From: Collinsella sp. An307
Lineage (GTDB): Bacteria > Actinomycetota > Coriobacteriia > Coriobacteriales > Coriobacteriaceae
Length of the DNA: 64,000 nt
NCBI RefSeq assembly: GCF_002161805.1
Contig: NZ_NFIP01000002.1
Span: 186,001 to 250,000 of the forward strand
Direction of reading: 5' to 3'
Positions 16,319 to 24,725 of this stretch are shown in pieces. Positions within the stretch are counted from its first letter, which is position 1. Each line of letters starts with the position of its first letter. The position numbers and the translations under genes were made by a program. The notes under the pieces are model-generated. The model worked only from the letters and a program-made list of their open reading frames with translations, was not told the DNA's origin and did no database searches.

Positions 16319-16738
16319 CTAGGAGAGGATGCCGTCGAGCGTGCGCCAGGCGAGCTCGGCGCACTTCACGCGGGCGGGCATGTGCGAGATGTCCTTCAGC
16401 TGGGCAGCCTCGTCGAGGTCCTCGTAATCCTCTTCGGAAAGCTCCTCGCCGCGGATCATCTTGAGGAAGAGGGCTGAGAGTCGGCGTGCTTCCTCGATGG
16501 TCTCACCGGTGATGAGCTCGGCCATGATATCTGCCGAGGCTTGGGAGATGGCGCAGCCGTGACCGGTGAAACTCGCCTCCTCGATCACGCCGTCCTCCAC
16601 ACGCAGCTGGAGGGTGAGCTCGTCGCCGCAGCTGGGGTTGATGCCGTCGTGCGTGTGGGTGGGGGCGTCCATCTCGTACTTGTAGTCGGGGTGGGAGTTA
16701 TGCTCCATGAACGTGGTCGAGCTGTAGATGTTGGCCAT
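16319..16738 (-). CDS. sufU: SufU Fe-S assembly protein
   Basis: 139 residues. The three Cys of SufU are present in order: NPSCGDELTLQL (with the conserved Asp), GHGCAISQASADIM and RVKCAELAWRTL. SufU of Gram-positives is a zinc-dependent sulphur acceptor that frees sulphur from SufS. It is the last gene of sufCBDSU. The true start MANIYSS at 16738 follows AAGGAG; a longer frame runs back through a repeat and is not credible. It is separated from sufS by a 107-base repeat-bearing spacer, the only large gap in the operon. Confidence 0.95.
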   Translation of the reverse strand: MANIYSSTTFMEHNSHPDYKYEMDAPTHTHDGINPSCGDELTLQLRVEDGVIEEASFTGHGCAISQASADIMAELITGETIEEARRLSALFLKMIRGEELSEEDYEDLDEAAQLKDISHMPARVKCAELAWRTLDGILS

Positions 16739-16754
16739 GAAGGTGCTCCTTAGG

Positions 16755-16843
16755 TGCACATTTGGGGACGGGTTCAAAATAGGTGCATTTGGGGACGGGG
16801 CCGAAACGCGCCAGATTGCATACTTCGACCCCGTCCCCAAATG
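16755..16843. repeat. TTTGGGGACGGGG repeat cluster with hairpin between sufS and sufU
   Basis: Three copies of a CATTTGGGGACGGGG-like motif: direct at 16758-16772 and 16786-16800, and inverted at 16829-16843. The last two form a 15-bp perfect stem with a 28-base loop, starting 3 bases after the sufS stop codon. Motifs of this sequence recur near REP-associated tyrosine transposase (RAYT) elements in many genomes; no transposase is here. In RNA the stem could stabilise or separate the sufCBDS and sufU messages. Confidence 0.75.
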
Positions 16844-16845
16844 AA

Positions 16846-18186
16846 TCAGTGGAAGGTGTTCCAGACTGTGGTGAGACCGTCGATAAAGCGGTCGATATCC
16901 GCCTGGTCGTTGTAGAAGGCGAGGCTCGCGCGGCAGCAGGCGAGGTTCTCGCAGCCCATCCAGGCGAGCAGCGGCTGTGCGCAGTGGTGCCCGGCGCGGA
17001 TGCACACGCCCTGCATGTCGAGGATGCTCGCGACGTCGTGGGGGTGGATGCCGCGCACGTTGAAGCTGATGACACCCAGGTGACGGTCCCAGTAGATGGA
17101 CCCCAGGATGTCGATGAAGGGGAGCTCCACCATACGGGACATGGCGTAATGGACGAGCGCCTGCTCGCGCGCGTGTACGGCGTCGTAGCCCACCTGCTCG
17201 GTCAGGTAGGTGAGGGCGGCCCCCGTGGCGAAGATGCCCGCGGCGTCCTGCGTGCCCGCCTCGAACTTCTCGGGCACGGGTGCCCAGACGGCGGACTGCT
17301 CGGTCACCGAGTCGATCATCTCACCGCCGGTGAGGAAGGGCTCGGCCTGCTCTAGAAGCGCGCGGTGTCCCCACAGCACGCCCACGCCCATGGGCCCGAG
17401 CGCCTTGTGAGCGGAAAACGCGAGGAAGTCCGCACCGAGTGTGCGCACGTCCACGGGCATGTGGGGGACGGACTGCGCGGCGTCGACAACGAGGTAGCCG
17501 CCCTGCGCATGCACGGCGCGGGCGAGCTTTTCCACCGGTACGCGGCAGCCAAGGACATTTGAGACCTGCGTGGCGGCCACGATCTTGGTCTTGGGGCCGA
17601 TCTTGGCGGCGATCTCCTCATCGGTGAGCTCGCCGGTCTTGGTGGGGTAGAGGTAGACGAGCGTGGCTCCTGCCGCCCGGCACGCCTGCTGCCAGGGGAT
17701 GAGGTTGGAGTGATGCTCCATGATAGTGATGGCGACCTCATCGCCGGGCTCAAGCACCGTGGGCGCGAACGCCTTGGCAACAAGGTTCAGCGACTCGCTG
17801 GTGTTGCGGGTGAAGACGATCTCAGAGGCCTGCGCGCGCCCGCGCTCGTCCACGGCGCCGATGAGCGTTGCGATTTGAGCGCGCACCTTGGCGATGGCCT
17901 CGGTCGCCTCGACGGAGAGCGAGTAGAGACCGCGGAGCGGGTTGGCGTTCATGGTTTCATAGAACCGGCGCTGCGCGTCGAGGACCACGGCAGGGCGCTG
18001 CGCGGTGGCGGCGCTGTCGAGAAAAGCGATGTCCGAATGCCCCGTGAGCAGCGGAAAGTCTGCCTTGTAGGGGTTGGCGGCGATATCGAGCTTGGGCCAG
18101 GTGCGGGAGGCCTCGTCGCTCGCGTCGATGACGGGCGCCTCGGGCGCGGTGCAGCTCTCGCAGCGAACGTTCTCGGTGTCGATCAT
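16846..18186 (-). CDS. sufS: SufS cysteine desulfurase
   Basis: 446-residue PLP enzyme that takes sulphur from cysteine for Fe-S assembly. The start of the fold reads FLDSAATAQRPAVV. The PLP lysine lies in FSAHKALGPMGVGVLWG, and the active-site Cys in IRAGHHCAQPLL near the end, typical of group II (SufS/CsdA) enzymes. An N-terminal 40-residue extension carries an odd CESC pair. The ATG overlaps the sufD stop by 4 bases, so translation is coupled. The sulphur acceptor SufU is the next gene. A longer upstream frame on this strand is only a shadow of sufD. Confidence 0.97.
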   Translation of the reverse strand: MIDTENVRCESCTAPEAPVIDASDEASRTWPKLDIAANPYKADFPLLTGHSDIAFLDSAATAQRPAVVLDAQRRFYETMNANPLRGLYSLSVEATEAIAKVRAQIATLIGAVDERGRAQASEIVFTRNTSESLNLVAKAFAPTVLEPGDEVAITIMEHHSNLIPWQQACRAAGATLVYLYPTKTGELTDEEIAAKIGPKTKIVAATQVSNVLGCRVPVEKLARAVHAQGGYLVVDAAQSVPHMPVDVRTLGADFLAFSAHKALGPMGVGVLWGHRALLEQAEPFLTGGEMIDSVTEQSAVWAPVPEKFEAGTQDAAGIFATGAALTYLTEQVGYDAVHAREQALVHYAMSRMVELPFIDILGSIYWDRHLGVISFNVRGIHPHDVASILDMQGVCIRAGHHCAQPLLAWMGCENLACCRASLAFYNDQADIDRFIDGLTTVWNTFH

Positions 18187-19487
18187 GCTGCGTCCTCCTC
18201 GGTCTCGTCGATATCGAAATCCTCGACCAGACGCTCGGCCAGACGCGCGACCGCGGCGCGGGCGCCCTCGGTGGGGGCGGTGAGTGCGGCGTCCTCGAGC
18301 TTGGCGGTGAGGAAGAGCGCCTCTGCCGCCTCGGGCGAGATGCCGCGGCTCATCATGTAGAAGAGCTGGTCGGGGCGGACGTGCCCGATGGTTGCGCCGT
18401 GGTTGCCGGCGACGTCGTCCTCGTCGCAAAGGATGGTCGGGACGGTCTTGTTGTCCACGCCCTCGCTTGCGATGAGCACGGTCTCGCGCTCGGTGCCCTC
18501 GGAGCCCTTGCAGCCGTGGACGAGGTCGATGGTGCCGCGCAGGACTTTCTTAGAGGTGCCGGCGAGCACGCCGTTTGCGAGGATGTTGGAGACGGTCTTG
18601 CGCCCGCGGTGGCGGACGGTGTAGGCAAAGTCGCGGCTCTCGGCGCCGGTTGCAAGGTAGCTCGTGTCGATGTCGGCGCGGGCGCCGTCGGCGCGGAGGT
18701 CCGCCACAAGGCCGGTGTAGGTCGTGCCGCCGCCCAGCACCACGTGGCGCACGGTGAGCCGTGCGCCCTCGTCGAGCACGTAGCCCTCGTCGTCCAAAAC
18801 CACGGTTGCGGGCAGGGCGCACACGTAGACGGTAACGTTCACGCGCGAGCGCGCGCCAGCAAAGACGCGCAGCTCGGAGCCAATGAGGGCGGCAGCGTCC
18901 GCATCGCCAAAGTCATCGGTACCGTCGAGCTCGATCACAAGGTCGAGCTCGGAGTCGGGCGCGGCCACCACGTCGACGGCAACGGCCGCGGCTGCGCGCT
19001 CCTCGCCCTCTACGCGCACGACCGCGCGGGCGCGCTCACCCTCAGTTGTGCCGAGGGCCACCGGCTCGCCGGCGAGAAAGTTCAGGTAGGAGCGGGCGTC
19101 GTGGCCCATGCCCGTCTCAAAGGCACGGGCGATGTCGCCCTCGGCTTCCTCGCGGCAGGCGCGCTCCTGGTAGCGCGAGAGCGCCGGAATGTCGAGGTCG
19201 CCGAGGTCCCCGTCCGCATCGGCACGCGTGCCGCCCGTCTTGGCGGCGCGCAGGCAGGCACGGTCATCCGCCGTGTCGCCTCGTGCGGCGTCCACGCGCT
19301 CCTGCATCTCGGCCACCGCGACCTCAAAGGGCCGCGCGTTGTCAAAGAGCTCCTGCGGCGCGTCCACGTCAACGGCGCCGACGGGGGCAAGGCCGGCGGG
19401 AATGGCGACCTTGGCGTTGTTCATCTTGAGCCAGCCCCACGTGGGCGCGGGCATAGCGCTGGCGTTGCGTATGGTGAGAGCGTCCAT
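18183..19487 (-). CDS. sufD: SufD, Fe-S scaffold complex subunit
   Basis: 434-residue SufB/SufD-family protein with the right-handed beta-helix core and the conserved C-terminal block (SEGVDNKTVPTILCDEDDVAGNHGATIGHVRPDQLFYMMSRGISPEAAEALFL region). It pairs with SufB to form SufBC2D. It lies between sufB, whose ORF ends one base upstream, and sufS, which overlaps it. Sequence outside the C-terminal block is Ala/Asp/Val-rich and divergent, as is usual for SufD. The assignment rests on that block and on the operon order. Confidence 0.94.
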   Translation of the reverse strand: MDALTIRNASAMPAPTWGWLKMNNAKVAIPAGLAPVGAVDVDAPQELFDNARPFEVAVAEMQERVDAARGDTADDRACLRAAKTGGTRADADGDLGDLDIPALSRYQERACREEAEGDIARAFETGMGHDARSYLNFLAGEPVALGTTEGERARAVVRVEGEERAAAAVAVDVVAAPDSELDLVIELDGTDDFGDADAAALIGSELRVFAGARSRVNVTVYVCALPATVVLDDEGYVLDEGARLTVRHVVLGGGTTYTGLVADLRADGARADIDTSYLATGAESRDFAYTVRHRGRKTVSNILANGVLAGTSKKVLRGTIDLVHGCKGSEGTERETVLIASEGVDNKTVPTILCDEDDVAGNHGATIGHVRPDQLFYMMSRGISPEAAEALFLTAKLEDAALTAPTEGARAAVARLAERLVEDFDIDETEEDAA

Positions 19488-20900
19488 CTAGCCGATCGCC
19501 CCTTCCATCTCGAGCTTGATGAGGTTGTTCATCTCAACGGCGTATTCGAGTGGCAGCTCCTTGGCAACCGGGTTCGCAAAGCCGTTCACGATCATCGCGC
19601 GCGCCTCCTCCTCAGAGATGCCGCGGCTCATAAGGTAGAAGACCTTGTCGTCGCCGATGCGGCCGATCGTTGCTTCGTGACCAATGTCGACGTTTTTGGC
19701 GCGCACGTCCATCGCGGGGATGGTGTCCGAGCGGCTCTCGTCGTCGAGCATGAGCGACTGGCAGCTGACCGTTGCCTGCGCGCCCTCTGCCGCGGGCGTC
19801 ACCACAATGGAGGAGCGGAACGTCTGGATGCCGCCTCCCTTGGAGATACCCTTGGTCTCCACGGTCGCGCGGGTGTCGGGCGCGGCCATGACCACCTTGG
19901 TGCCGGTGTCGAGGTTCTGGCCCGCGCCCGCAAAGGTGATGCCGGTAAAGCTCGAGCGCGCGCGTCGCCCGGTGAGCACGCTCATGGGGTAGAGATAGCC
20001 CACGTGGCTGCCAAAGGAGCCGCTGATCCACTCGATCTCGCCGTCTTCCTCCACGCGTGCGCGCTTGGTGTTCAAGTTGTACATGTTTTTCGACCAGTTC
20101 TCGATGGTCGAGTAGCGCAGGTGCGCGCGGCGTCCCACAAAGAGCTCCACGGCGCCCGCGTGCAGGTTTGCCACGTTGTACTTAGGCGCCGAGCATCCCT
20201 CGATAAAGTGCAGGTCGGCGTCGTCCTCGACGATGATGAGCGTGTGCTCAAACTGACCGGCGCCCTTGGCGTTCAGGCGGAAGTAGCTCTGGAGCGGGAA
20301 GTCGAGCTTGGTGCCGGCGGGCACGTAGACAAACGAGCCGCCGCTCCACACCGCACCGTGGAGCGCGGCAAACTTGTGGTCCGTCGGCGGGATGAGCGTC
20401 ATGAACTTCTCGCGAATGAGCTCCTCCCAGCGCGGCTCGTGGAGCGCCTCCTCAATACCGGAGTAGACGATGCCCATCTTGGAGGCGGTGTCCTGCATGT
20501 TGTGGTAGACAAGCTCCGAGTCGTACTGAGCGCCCACGCCGGCGAGGTAGCTCCGCTCCGCCTCGGGGATGCCCAGACGCTCAAAGGTGTTCTTGATGTC
20601 GTCGGGCACGTCCTCCCAGGTGGCGGACTGGTCGGTGTTGGGCTTCACGTAGGTGGCGATGTGGTCCATGTCGAGACCCGCGATCGAAGGGCCCCACGTG
20701 GGGTCGGGGAAGCTGTTGTAGATCTCGAGCGACTTCAGACGAAACTCGAGCATCCACTGGGGCTCGTCCTTGCGGCGGGAGATCTCGGTCACGATCTCGG
20801 GCGTGAGGCCCTCGGCCAGGCGCTCAAAGCCCTCCTCGGAATCTTTGAAGTCGTAGAGGCTGCGGTCGATATCCGCGACCTCGGTGCGCTGCTTTGCCAT
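19488..20900 (-). CDS. sufB: SufB, Fe-S scaffold protein
   Basis: 470 residues, the normal SufB length. Family blocks are clear: YSGIEEALHEPRWEELIREKFMTL, GSFVYVPAGTKLDFPLQSYFR, the Cys-bearing IEGCSAPKYNVANLHAG, and the C-terminal HEATIGRIGDDKVFYLMSRGISEEEARAMIV. SufB is the site where clusters are built, working with SufC ATPase and SufD. It is second in the operon, 9 bases from sufC, and directly abuts sufD. Confidence 0.97.
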   Translation of the reverse strand: MAKQRTEVADIDRSLYDFKDSEEGFERLAEGLTPEIVTEISRRKDEPQWMLEFRLKSLEIYNSFPDPTWGPSIAGLDMDHIATYVKPNTDQSATWEDVPDDIKNTFERLGIPEAERSYLAGVGAQYDSELVYHNMQDTASKMGIVYSGIEEALHEPRWEELIREKFMTLIPPTDHKFAALHGAVWSGGSFVYVPAGTKLDFPLQSYFRLNAKGAGQFEHTLIIVEDDADLHFIEGCSAPKYNVANLHAGAVELFVGRRAHLRYSTIENWSKNMYNLNTKRARVEEDGEIEWISGSFGSHVGYLYPMSVLTGRRARSSFTGITFAGAGQNLDTGTKVVMAAPDTRATVETKGISKGGGIQTFRSSIVVTPAAEGAQATVSCQSLMLDDESRSDTIPAMDVRAKNVDIGHEATIGRIGDDKVFYLMSRGISEEEARAMIVNGFANPVAKELPLEYAVEMNNLIKLEMEGAIG

Positions 20901-20909
20901 CGCGCCTCC

Positions 20910-21755
20910 TTAGCGCTCGACGACGGCCGAGAGGTCGGCGGCGTCGATCCCGTCGAGTGCGCCCGTGCCGGACGCCTGACCGTCCGCGCCGACAGCGCCC
21001 TCGCCGGCCTGCTCAAAGGACTCAAAGCCGTTCTCGTCGATCCAAGGGATGAGGGAGGCGTCGTCCTCGCGCACCATGCGGCCCTGGACCATGACATGCA
21101 CGCGATCAACGTCCACGTGCTCCAGGATACGGGTGTTGTGCGTGATGATAATGAGCGAGCCGTCGCAGGTCTTGCGGTAGAGGTCCATGCCGCGACTCAC
21201 AACGCTGAGCGCGTCGACGTCGAGGCCGGAGTCAGTCTCGTCGAGGATGGCGAGCTTGGGCTGGAGGAGCAAAAGTTGGAGCATCTCGACCTTCTTCTTC
21301 TCGCCGCCCGAGAAGCCCACGCCAAGCTCACGGTTGAGGTAGCTCGGGTCCATGTCGAGCTCGGCGCAGAGCTCCTTCACGCGACGACGGAACTCCTTGC
21401 CCTTAAGCGCCCGGTCTGGGCGCGCGGCGAGCGTGGCGCGCAAAAAGCTCGAGAGTGGCACGCCGGGGATTTCGACCGGCGCCTGGAAGGAGAGGAAAAG
21501 TCCCGCACGGGAGCGCTTGTCGGGCGAAAGCTCGGTCACGTCCTCGCCGTCGAAGGTGATGGTGCCCGCGGTCTGGGTGTAGACGGGGTCGCCCATGATG
21601 ACGTGGCCCAAGGTGGACTTGCCGGCGCCGTTGGGGCCCATGAGGACGTGCGTCTCGCCGGCGTCGACGGCAAGGTCGATGCCGTGGAGGATCTCCTTCT
21701 CATCGACCGCGGCCGAGAGGCCCTGGACGCTGAGCAGCGGGGTGGAAGCGGGCAT
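20910..21755 (-). CDS. sufC: SufC, Fe-S assembly ATPase
   Basis: 281-residue ABC-type ATPase. Walker A is GPNGAGKST, the signature is FSGGEKKKVEM, and Walker B with the D-loop is LAILDETDSGLDVDAL, all characteristic of SufC. The protein is about 30 residues longer than usual because of an Ala/Gly/Asp-rich tail ending DAADLSAVVER. It is the first gene of the operon. The start MPASTPLL at 21755 follows AAGGAG; a longer frame extends back into the promoter and regulator and is rejected. Confidence 0.97.
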   Translation of the reverse strand: MPASTPLLSVQGLSAAVDEKEILHGIDLAVDAGETHVLMGPNGAGKSTLGHVIMGDPVYTQTAGTITFDGEDVTELSPDKRSRAGLFLSFQAPVEIPGVPLSSFLRATLAARPDRALKGKEFRRRVKELCAELDMDPSYLNRELGVGFSGGEKKKVEMLQLLLLQPKLAILDETDSGLDVDALSVVSRGMDLYRKTCDGSLIIITHNTRILEHVDVDRVHVMVQGRMVREDDASLIPWIDENGFESFEQAGEGAVGADGQASGTGALDGIDAADLSAVVER

Positions 21756-21774: not shown

Positions 21775-21863
21775 TAGGATGAAAATCCTAGGAATAATCT
21801 CGGATTAACGATAAGATGAATGCCGGTGAAGTCAAGATGAAATCCGACTAATCCACTAGGATT
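21775..21863. promoter_or_regulatory. suf promoter with repeated AATCC/GGATT palindromes (probable Rrf2 operators)
   Basis: A minus-strand promoter is visible as TTGACT (complement of 21830-21835) and TATCGT (complement of 21808-21813), 16 bases apart. Three inverted repeats surround it: TAGGAT-GAAA-ATCCTA at 21775-21790, AATC-TCG-GATT at 21796-21806 and AATCC-ACTA-GGATT at 21850-21863, plus a lone AATCC at 21841-21845. The divergent regulator gene next door makes this the natural operator. Binding is inferred. Confidence 0.65.
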
Positions 21864-21992
21864 TCTTGTGCCATTTGGGTGCCGCATGTGGAGCGGGGCC
21901 GTAACGCGACATCTACCGCAGGGTGCCCCGATCCGGCCGCTTTGCCACCTTTGCGGGCCAAAGCTGAAGCCACCGCAGGAAGGAGCGAGCGC

Positions 21993-22433
21993 GTGCTTAT
22001 ATCGTCTAAAGGGCGCTACGCGCTGCGCCTCATGATCTATATCGCCGCCTTCGGTCGCGAGGACGGTCACAAGGTCGCCCTGCGCGAGGTGGCGGCGGGG
22101 GAGGACATCTCCCTAAAATACCTCGAGCAGCTCGTGCGCCCGCTCATGCAGGCCGGGCTGCTCAAGAGCGTGCGGGGCAAAGGCGGTGGCTACGTGCTGG
22201 CCCGTCCCGCGACCGATATTCGCGCGGGCGATATCCTGCGCGTCGCGGAGGGCACCACGGCGCCTGTGGCCTGCGAGGGTATCGAGGGGGCGTGCTACCG
22301 CGCCGGCCTTTGCTCGACGGTTAAGTTCTGGACCGGCCTCGACGAGGTGATAGAACGCTACGTGGACGGTGTGACGCTCGCCGACCTCGCCGCCGTGCCC
22401 GAGATCAACCTCGAGATTTCGACGGGAGAGTAG
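21993..22433 (+). CDS. Rrf2/IscR-family Fe-S responsive regulator
   Basis: 146 residues. A winged helix starts LISSKGRYALRLMIYIA and includes the recognition region ISLKYLEQLVRPLMQAGLLKSVRGKGGGYVLARP, the Rrf2 hallmark. Three Cys in CEGIEGACYRAGLC (spacing 6 and 5) match the cluster-ligand region of IscR-like members. It is divergent from sufCBDSU with palindromes between, so it probably senses Fe-S supply and represses or adjusts suf. GTG at 21993 follows AAGGAG and fits the family start; longer ATG starts add unrelated residues. Confidence 0.92.
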   Translation: MLISSKGRYALRLMIYIAAFGREDGHKVALREVAAGEDISLKYLEQLVRPLMQAGLLKSVRGKGGGYVLARPATDIRAGDILRVAEGTTAPVACEGIEGACYRAGLCSTVKFWTGLDEVIERYVDGVTLADLAAVPEINLEISTGE

Positions 22434-22473
22434 GACAGGCTCCACCCGAACCTTGGTTGTTATGTTCGAAATG

Positions 22474-22526
22474 GCAGAAAGCCACTCCTCAGCACGGTGC
22501 AGATATGCTGAGGAGTGGCTTTCTGC
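22474..22526. repeat. 21-bp perfect inverted repeat (long hairpin)
   Basis: Arms 22474-22494 and 22506-22526 are exact complements (GCAGAAAGCCACTC... and reverse), with an 11-base loop. The right arm runs into a palindrome TGCTGTACAGCA (22524-22535). There is no U-run on either strand, so it is not a standard terminator, although it lies 40 bases past the regulator stop. Confidence 0.85.
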
Positions 22527-22557
22527 TGTACAGCACCAAAATGTGATGTGAAAATAG

Positions 22558-22591
22558 CAGAAAACCACTCGTGAGTAAACAGAAGAGTGGT
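22558..22591. repeat. Degenerate second copy of the hairpin motif
   Basis: GCAGAAAACCACTC at 22558-22571 repeats the left arm of the 22474 hairpin with one change, and GAGTGGT at 22585-22591 pairs with its end. This gives a shorter 7-bp stem in the same arrangement. Confidence 0.65.
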
Positions 22592-22805: not shown

Positions 22806-24725
22806 ATGAAGCCCCGCCACCTCGCTGTTGCCGCAGGACTCGCCCTTACGCTTTCCTTTGGAGCCGCGCATGCGGCAACGCCCGTTTATGCTGAAGAGGC
22901 GTCTGTCGAGCACGATGCTAACGCCGCGGCGCAGCCGGAAGGTTCCTCGTCAGCCGGCGCGGATACGACTGGTACGGGGGATGTGGCAGCGGATGACGTT
23001 GCCGCGGAGCCTCTGCCTGCGCCGAGCGATTACGATAAGACCGACTTTTGCGAGGACGTCGCCCCCGCCTCTGCGCGGTCAGCACGCTCCTCGGCATCGA
23101 GCCTCTCATCCGTCTCGGTTTCCAGCGAGATGAAGTACTTCACCAAGTACGAGAGCCACAGCAACTACCGCCAGGGCTTCGGGCGAGGAGATGGCTACAA
23201 CGCGCTCGGCTACTATCAGTTTGACCGGCGGTACTCGCTCATCTCGTTCGTCACGGCGGTGTATAGTGCCAATCCCGCGAAGTACTCCATGCTCAAACCG
23301 GTGATCGACCGGGGGAGTGAGATCGCGGGCGCGTCGTCCATGTACGATTCTGAGGCGGGAACGCTGAACGAGCTCGGTCAGCTGGCGCAGAATGCGTGGT
23401 ACGCCGCCTATGACACCGACCCCGCGGAGTTCTCGGCGTTTCAGGATGCGTATGCGTACAACAGCTACTACGTTCCGACCGAGCGTTGGCTCAAGAGCGA
23501 GCTGGGCATCGATATGTTCGGCCGCGCCGATTGCGTCAAGGGCATGGTGTGGGGACTCTCCAACATGTGGGGTACGAACGGCGTGAAGAAGGTTATGTGC
23601 GGAGCGAGCCTCAGCAACGATATGACAGACCGTGAGTTTGTGACGGCCCTAGCGACCCAGATGACGGACAACATCGCGCAGTACAGCTCGCAGACGCGGT
23701 ACTACAAGGGTTGGGGGGACCGTTATCGCAACGAGCTGAATGACTGCCTGGCATATATCTCGCTGCATGAGGCAGAGCAGGACGTCGGGGGTGCGGTGGA
23801 TGATCCGTCTGCCGGTTCAGATGCGACGGGGCCCGGTGCGTCTGACTCCAATGGAGACGCGGCGGACGAGCCGACGCAGGGGGAAGGGATTGACGGTGCG
23901 GGATCGTCTTCTGGTGCCTCTGGCGAGGGCGGCGCGTCCGATGGTGCGGGCGCTGGATCCGATTCCGGTCAGACCGCGGGCGACTCGAGCGATGCCGCCG
24001 ATCCGGGGACTGCGGGCGGAGGCTCGGCCGATGAGCCCGATGGCGGCGCTTCGAGCGACGGTTCGGCCGACGCGGGTGCGGACGGTGCCGGGTCTGACGA
24101 CTCGGATGGCGCGGGGTCGGATACTTCGGCCGATGGATCGCAGGGCAGCGAGGATTCGACCGTCGATAGTGGCTCGGACGCCGGGAGCGGGTCGGATACG
24201 GAGGGTGGCACCGATTCCGACGGTGCGGATGCCGTCGATCCGGTGACGCCGCAGTCTGCTCCGAGCACGCCTGGAGGCAGCGTGGACTCCGGTCAGGCGG
24301 ACAACTCTAACGGCAGCGATGCCGAGAGCGACGCGACCGCTGATGGGTCTGCTGAGGGCGACTCATCCGAGGGAGACACCTCGAATGACGCCTCTGGGCA
24401 GGGGACCTCCGCTGCAGATGAAGACACGCAGGGCGATGGGGGCGGAAAGGCCCCAGGGGATGATGCGGCTAAGAAGACGGGTGCCGATGGCGAGCGGGAC
24501 GGTGCTGCCGACCCGGCGAACGCGAGCGACCCCTCTGGCTCAGACGGCGGCAACGGGTCGAGCAAAAGCAGTACCAACGGCGCCAAGCGCTTGCCGCAAA
24601 CCTCAGACCTTGCGCTTTTCGCAGGCCTGGCGGGCGCAAGCGCCGCAACATTCGGCGCGACGTTTGTCTTTGCCGGCAAGAGCGGCATCATCAAGCGCAA
24701 GGACGGTAGCGACAGCGCGGAGTAG
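22806..24725 (+). CDS. LPQTS-anchored surface protein with Ser/Asp/Gly-rich stalk
   Basis: 639 residues. A signal peptide (MKPRHLAVAAGLALTLSFGAAHAA) comes first. A folded region of about 210 residues starts near MKYFTKYESHSNYRQGF and includes DGYNALGYYQFDRRYSL and WGLSNMWGTNGVKKVM. It resembles domains in other coriobacterial surface proteins and, loosely, lysozyme-like folds, but I cannot name it. About 270 residues of Ser/Asp/Gly/Ala/Glu stalk follow. The end is a sortase signal: LPQTS, a hydrophobic span, then KSGIIKRKDG. The start MKPRHL is chosen for the signal peptide and a GGAG site; an upstream TTG is possible. No sortase gene is in the window. Confidence 0.88.
   Translation: MKPRHLAVAAGLALTLSFGAAHAATPVYAEEASVEHDANAAAQPEGSSSAGADTTGTGDVAADDVAAEPLPAPSDYDKTDFCEDVAPASARSARSSASSLSSVSVSSEMKYFTKYESHSNYRQGFGRGDGYNALGYYQFDRRYSLISFVTAVYSANPAKYSMLKPVIDRGSEIAGASSMYDSEAGTLNELGQLAQNAWYAAYDTDPAEFSAFQDAYAYNSYYVPTERWLKSELGIDMFGRADCVKGMVWGLSNMWGTNGVKKVMCGASLSNDMTDREFVTALATQMTDNIAQYSSQTRYYKGWGDRYRNELNDCLAYISLHEAEQDVGGAVDDPSAGSDATGPGASDSNGDAADEPTQGEGIDGAGSSSGASGEGGASDGAGAGSDSGQTAGDSSDAADPGTAGGGSADEPDGGASSDGSADAGADGAGSDDSDGAGSDTSADGSQGSEDSTVDSGSDAGSGSDTEGGTDSDGADAVDPVTPQSAPSTPGGSVDSGQADNSNGSDAESDATADGSAEGDSSEGDTSNDASGQGTSAADEDTQGDGGGKAPGDDAAKKTGADGERDGAADPANASDPSGSDGGNGSSKSSTNGAKRLPQTSDLALFAGLAGASAATFGATFVFAGKSGIIKRKDGSDSAE

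Follow-up and report, generated by a model that had tools for sequence, protein, structure and literature searches.

Two conserved palindromes bracket the suf promoter of Collinsella and are candidate operators of a divergent Rrf2 regulator

How iron–sulfur cluster assembly is regulated in Gram-positive bacteria without SufR is named as a gap in PMC8593673, and the suf locus of Collinsella sp. An307 raises this question in a compact form. A preliminary description of this DNA drew attention to clustered AATCC/GGATT repeats in the region that separates sufC from the divergent gene of an Rrf2 regulator and suggested that they might be a coriobacterial code for an Fe-S regulator. Control of Fe-S operons by Rrf2 proteins is already known, with six groups and several independent recruitments reported in PMC9973013. 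SufR, the dedicated suf regulator of cyanobacteria and some actinobacteria (PMC8593673), corresponds to a different protein model (TIGR02702), which had 0 matches at E ≤0.001 in the genome analyzed here. Which protein acts at this promoter, through which sites and in response to which signal are the questions considered below.

Two palindromes around the suf promoter

We refer to the whole 64,000-nucleotide stretch of DNA that was analyzed as the window. Its suf genes are encoded on the minus strand in the order sufC (20910..21755; TIGR01978, 293 bits, above cut-off), sufB (19488..20900; TIGR01980, 649 bits, above cut-off), sufD (18183..19487; SUFBD_core above cut-off, TIGR01981 149.5 bits and thus under its cut-off of 222), sufS (16846..18189, predicted start; TIGR01979, 488 bits, above cut-off) and sufU (16319..16738, predicted start; TIGR01994, 146.6 bits, above cut-off, for the longer frame 16319-16918). 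Genome-wide, the iscU model found the suf-linked SufU and one weak match elsewhere, neither above cut-off, and the IscS model found three matches, none above cut-off. Divergent from sufC on the plus strand lies the gene for a 146-aa Rrf2 regulator with a Cys-x6-Cys-x5-Cys arrangement (21993..22433; its GTG start was placed by alignment with orthologues).

Two palindromes with the common core AATCC-N13-GGATT lie between the two genes. Candidate operator A, TAATCCGAGATTATTCCTAGGATTT in the suf sense, occupies 21783..21807 on the minus strand (core 21784-21806), and candidate operator B, AAATCCTAGTGGATTAGTCGGATTT in the suf sense, occupies 21840..21864 on the same strand (core 21841-21863). As the preliminary description had noted for this intergenic region, the repeats flank a -35/-10 pair: on the minus strand, between A and B, are a -35 hexamer TTGACT (21830..21835), of which TTGAC is kept in relatives, and, after a 16-bp spacer, a -10 hexamer TATCGT (21808..21813). 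From the hexamer positions we infer a transcription start at 21801, 7 nt after the -10. Counted from this start, A extends from about -6 to +19, adjoining the -10 and overlaying the start itself, while B extends from about -63 to -39 (centre -51) and ends 4 bases before the -35. The two sites bracket the predicted sigma-70-type promoter of sufCBDSU, and their centres are 57 bp or about 5.4 turns apart, a distance that does not favour direct contact between A and B.

The exact pattern AATCC-N13-GGATT is rare. It occurs twice in the window against 0.03 expected matches, and 0 of 100 shuffles contained two; in the whole 2.2-Mb genome (G000, 99.47% complete) it is found only at A and B, with 0 matches for a reversed-pattern control. 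When two mismatches were allowed, the window held 13 matches vs 19.4 expected and hence no excess, and a longer consensus with three mismatches matched 9 places in the genome (2 of them at suf) vs 7 in the control. Since these counts are at background level, loose matching is uninformative, and the signal is carried by exact or profile matches, by position and by conservation.

All three perfect inverted repeats that had been described initially are present, but only two of them appear to be operators. The third, AATCC-N4-GGATT at 21850-21863 (0.02 expected), has its right half in common with site B, and its inner AATCC word (21850..21854, plus strand) is exact in 12 of 30 alignable Coriobacteriaceae rows and in 0 of 6 from a second family. 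Because this inner half-site is not conserved, it looks incidental, and we rejected the third palindrome as an operator.

Two further features were observed beyond the regulator gene. Downstream of it, at 22471-22529, is a hairpin with 24 outer pairs (-45.3 kcal/mol, z -8.3), one arm of which is partly copied at 22557-22570; it resembles either a bidirectional terminator or a small repeat element. The gene at 22806-24725 encodes a protein that is probably secreted and that combines a long acidic stretch rich in Ser, Gly and Asp with, as read by eye, an LPQTS-like C-terminal sorting signal. Residues 191-310 of this protein match the Pfam family T6SS_VgrG3-like_C (30.6 bits vs a cut-off of 27).

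Conservation of the pair and of its linked regulator

We compared 60 sufC upstream regions of at most 420 bases each, after 11 duplicates had been dropped: 33 from Coriobacteriaceae (f1, window included), 8 from family f3 and 19 from family f2. A pair was counted where two sites, each matching at least 7 of 10 positions, stood at a spacing of 55, 56, 57 or 67, these spacings having been picked after the data were viewed. By this rule the pair is present at 29 of the 33 f1 loci, which include close relatives, at 6/8 f3 loci and at 1/19 f2 loci, against dinucleotide-shuffle expectations of 0.53, 0.11 and 0.25, respectively. A lack of conservation at orthologous suf operons, which the preliminary description had named as grounds for abandoning its proposal, is clearly not what these loci display. 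Within orthologous pairs each site scores 7-10 out of 10, and exact AATCC/GGATT halves are lost even within the genus, with 0 sites in G066 and G204 among the matches listed. The pair is missing by this rule from L011, L020, L029 and L049 in f1 and from L058 and L059 in f3; L029 contains neither A nor B in the 376 bases examined.

The promoter is kept together with the sites. TTGAC stands at the -35 position of 30/33 f1 loci, the exceptions being L020, L029 and L049, and of each of the 6 f3 loci examined (of 8). For the distance from the -35 to A, values from 26 to 35 were allowed; it came to 29 nt at 30/33 f1 loci and to 28 nt at these 6 f3 loci. Thinning of the f1 rows to at most 90% identity left 25, and among the 16 of these with B at the 57 position mean pairwise identity is 0.86 for A, 0.76 for B and 0.83 for approximately the -10 region, compared to 0.26 for both flanks; in the promoter spacer it is 0.46, peaking beside the -10. 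The 29 f1 pairs have a spacing of 57 in 21 cases, 56 in 4, 55 in 1 and 67 in 3 (L023, L026 and L027). The last class exceeds 57 by 10 bases, roughly one turn of the helix, which are inserted between B and the -35, while a spacing of 73, out of phase, is seen at L020, where TTGAC is missing. This pattern suggests, from few independent events, that the face of B relative to polymerase matters.

It is scarcely credible that the palindromes arose by chance or act as an RNA hairpin instead of as DNA operators. Site A would indeed be transcribed, but B is located upstream of the promoter and thus outside its transcript, and no Rfam family reached its gathering score, the two listed matches having E values of 0.51 and 0.86. 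Both the conservation and the shuffle tests speak against this explanation, and conservation refutes a chance origin.

The linked regulator belongs to the Rrf2 superfamily according to both Pfam Rrf2 (PF02082, 115.4 bits, cut-off 30) and NCBIfam rrf2_super (TIGR00738, 110.9 bits, cut-off 73.3), and its closest named relatives are from Collinsella and other Coriobacteriaceae. Its gene is divergent from sufC at 28 of 33 f1 loci and at the 6 f3 loci with the pair. It sits after sufU in L026-L029 and 5.8 kb past the operon end in L051; since the pair remains at sufC in L026-L028 and L051 although rrf2 has moved, the pair belongs to the suf promoter. In a tree built by a quick method, with long branches flagged, the suf-linked regulators of f1 and f3 (16 + 6 rows) form one clade (SH-aLRT 98) with the row L084, whose genome gave no match to sufB, and 12 f2 rows form another (SH-aLRT 99). 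In f2 suf operons rrf2 lies downstream of sufU, and the suf-linked Rrf2 of this family is apparently a separate recruitment.

Other palindromes were seen at several of these loci. L058 and L059 each have one related palindrome near sufC, ATATCC-N13-GGATAT, with no linked rrf2 found; away from suf, their genomes encode a relative of the Rrf2 regulator with 56 and 59% identity. Some f2 suf loci (within L060-L078) have different palindromes upstream of sufC, such as AATTCCCCACTCATTACTATGAATT.

The operators could be real and yet belong to another protein, either the second Rrf2 protein of this genome (C16) or some other factor. Two Rrf2 genes of G000 exceed the Pfam cut-off, and the suf loci L058 and L059 combine a related palindrome with the absence of a detected linked rrf2. 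However, C16, the one further Rrf2 match that a protein search of G000 found, is 30% identical to the linked regulator and sits on a long branch, the L058 and L059 genomes do encode the unlinked relative, and it is the linked clade that accompanies the site pair. We consider such an assignment very improbable. Whatever the sign of regulation, the linked Rrf2 protein very probably binds both sites.

Relation to IscR, RisR and CymR

The claim that the half-sites depart from the textbook IscR sequence gained no support from comparison with published motifs. The type-2 consensus of E. coli IscR has a CC-N13-GG frame with W-rich (AT-rich) outer flanks (PMC4055776), and A and B each match 12 of the 16 defined letters of WWWWCCxYAx7TRxGGWWWW: the 12 outer letters agree, whereas the 4 inner ones (YA/TR) are missing. 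Scored against the E. coli type-1 consensus given in PMC6599224 (frame YYGAC-N7-GTCRR), B reaches 18/25 (p 0.0026, or 0.26%, on shuffling of the inner 13 positions), a value reached by only 3 of the 63,976 25-mers of the window, B included, and A reaches 14/25 (p 0.19, or 18.7%). Two published P. aeruginosa IscR sites score 17 and 20 when counted alike; PMC6599224 gives them 68% and 76% (17 and 19), so that the second differs by one from our count. Based on these scores B looks type-1-like and A looks like a hybrid. Across other species B scores 12 to 19 where placed correctly (our script misplaced it in L044, L046, L047 and L050) and the A sites of f3 score 11-12, and type-1 likeness is therefore not uniform.

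Several characterized systems resemble the window in part. E. coli IscR is likewise an Rrf2 protein with three Cys and 25-bp dyad sites, and shares the type-2 frame. It differs in that the window regulator has Cys-x6-Cys-x5-Cys without His107, adjoins suf instead of being part of an isc operon, and has two sites bracketing one promoter. At the isc promoter of P. aeruginosa, IscR also has two sites at one promoter, the first of which (site A in PMC6599224) begins AATCCTGAG; these adjoin each other (-67 to -43 and -42 to -18), whereas those of the window lie on either side of the promoter. M. xanthus RisR, another Rrf2 protein, recognizes GAC-N7-GTC in the same frame (PMC9973013). Its core letters are different, B having one triplet of the two (TAG-N7-GTC) and A neither (GAG-N7-CTA), as is its cysteine spacing (Cys92, 102, 108; PMC9973013).

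The regulator itself falls between characterized families. The IscR equivalog model (TIGR02010) scores 99.1 bits against a cut-off of 207.55 and the CymR equivalog (NF047409) 99.0 bits against a cut-off of 195. The closest solved sequence is that of Thermincola potens IscR (PDB 4cic, 83 bits); CymR of B. subtilis and S. aureus ranks second and third, followed by E. coli IscR. All three cysteines are kept in 61/61 aligned rows, window included. In an alignment to 4hf1, His107 of E. coli IscR is paired with Val, and within the three residues after the third Cys His is absent from 61/61 aligned rows.

The different likeness of A and B to type-1 sites is one reason to consider a two-way switch at a single promoter, in which a cluster-bound dimer would repress from A and a dimer on B, cluster-free or cluster-bound, would activate. 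With its centre near -51, B would lie on the same side of the helix as classical activator sites do, the 67 spacing class seems to keep the phase, and E. coli IscR sets a precedent, its holo-form repressing isc and its apo-form activating suf (PMC8593673). On the other hand, the spacing of 73 at L020 is out of phase (though TTGAC is absent there), the allowed spacings were chosen with the data in view, the transcription start is a predicted one, and with a good -35 such as TTGACT activation is not obviously needed. We regard this switch as possible, though rather unlikely. Unlikely, too, is its extension, by which one SUF promoter would join both outputs that E. coli IscR splits, the cluster-bound regulator repressing from A and a dimer at B, kept in helical phase with polymerase, activating upon cluster loss, through a sensor whose fourth ligand is not the IscR histidine.

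We also searched 12 f1 genomes with a 25-position site profile, built from 32 sites each entered in both orientations (64 rows). Of 162 first-look candidates in G000, 150 were scored, and the two suf sites alone came in at E ≤5; since both sit in the profile, they are recovered by construction, and it is the lack of further sites that carries information. Suf has the best match in 11 of these 12 genomes; the exception is G018, where a non-suf site is slightly better. Recovery elsewhere is mostly not independent either, because of the five suf site strings from G042, G064, G066 and G108, genomes that contributed no locus to the profile, four duplicate one of its rows and only that of G064 differs. 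The idea of a broad regulon in G000 was dropped, as exact, loose and profile searches gave it no support.

Similar sites were observed elsewhere in relatives, next to genes whose names (cysK, serC and serA) we assigned by eye. In G078 (L090, 5405-5635) a PLP enzyme gene reading as cysK and the gene of an Rrf2 paralogue (51% identical) are divergent, and a perfect AATCC-N13-GGATT stands between them; in G094 (C12; L114, ~1644) a site with E 0.13 is flanked by another Rrf2 paralogue gene and another PLP enzyme gene reading as cysK. The site in these two genomes is AATCCTAGTTTGTCAATAGGATT or similar. The paralogue is probably a CymR-like cysteine regulator sharing the half-site, and in these relatives a CymR-like branch of the family thus seems to work with almost identical half-sites. 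A common site, ATAATCCGAGTGnAAAACTATGATTAAC, occurs in G018 (L113, 2001-2025; E 0.14) and G027 (L115, 2001-2025; E 0.77) upstream of a class-V aminotransferase gene reading as serC, followed by one reading as serA, which might tie the supply of serine to a regulator of this type. Exact AATCC-N13-GGATT is found in at least 75 of 149 genomes of the order. We looked at six such places (L097-L102): L099 and L102 are suf loci, L101 has its site directly upstream of an Rrf2 gene, and the remaining three have no evident link as judged from open reading frames read by eye.

A lineage-wide coriobacterial code, as envisaged in the preliminary description, is thus too strong a term, both because f2 has another Rrf2 clade and the pair at a single locus, and because similar sites accompany pairs of an Rrf2 paralogue and a cysK-like gene in two relatives.

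The paralogues also bear on the nature of the signal, since the linked regulator could, like CymR, sense cysteine in place of clusters and tune suf to sulfur supply. The nearly equal IscR and CymR model scores, both under cut-off, the missing His107, the similarity of IscR and CymR motifs described in PMC3828012 and the sites beside cysK-like genes would all fit this explanation. CymR itself regulates cysteine genes. In G000, however, sites were found at suf only. In addition, the regulator has three invariant Cys, whereas the CymR of B. subtilis binds no cluster according to PMC9338935. Cysteine sensing is, in our estimation, decidedly improbable here.

A candidate feedback loop for iron–sulfur assembly

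We favour holo-repression as the probable mode of control, in which A and B are predicted dimer operators of the divergent Rrf2 regulator and form a local negative-feedback loop for iron–sulfur assembly. The observations behind it are the two palindromes of 23-25 bp, which are conserved and hold a nearly constant position around a single promoter, a linked protein with three invariant Cys from Rrf2, a family suited to DNA binding, and the lack of any further profile match in G000 among the candidates scored. In the proposed mechanism these cysteines would hold an Fe-S cluster. While clusters are plentiful, the cluster-bound dimer would occupy A, at the edge of the -10 and the start, and B, against the -35, shutting out polymerase and repressing suf. 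When clusters become scarce under iron limitation or oxygen or NO stress, the regulator would lose its cluster and leave the operators empty, and suf would be made until clusters recover. A precedent is RisR of M. xanthus, an Rrf2 protein whose holo-form represses isc and suf (PMC9973013).

Some evidence is at odds with holo-repression. A is not type-1-like, and 4/33 f1 and 2/8 f3 loci miss the pair. His107 is a cluster ligand in E. coli IscR (PMC8593673), and its replacement by Val in the alignment means that cluster type or cluster dependence may differ from IscR. As the H107A variant of P. aeruginosa IscR loses promoter binding (PMC6599224), the same cluster chemistry should not be assumed here.

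What is new in this work is an Rrf2/suf case in which two sites bracket the promoter and the putative cluster ligands form an unusual set. The open-access literature on Coriobacteria, Collinsella and Eggerthella, surveyed partly by title, yielded no account of this Rrf2-suf control. The locus represents a conserved and compact gut-bacterial module in which the candidate operators have exact coordinates, a single protein is the candidate regulator and the predicted target set is one operon, so that the question of how iron–sulfur assembly is controlled can be put to the test with this protein and a DNA fragment of about 90 bp.
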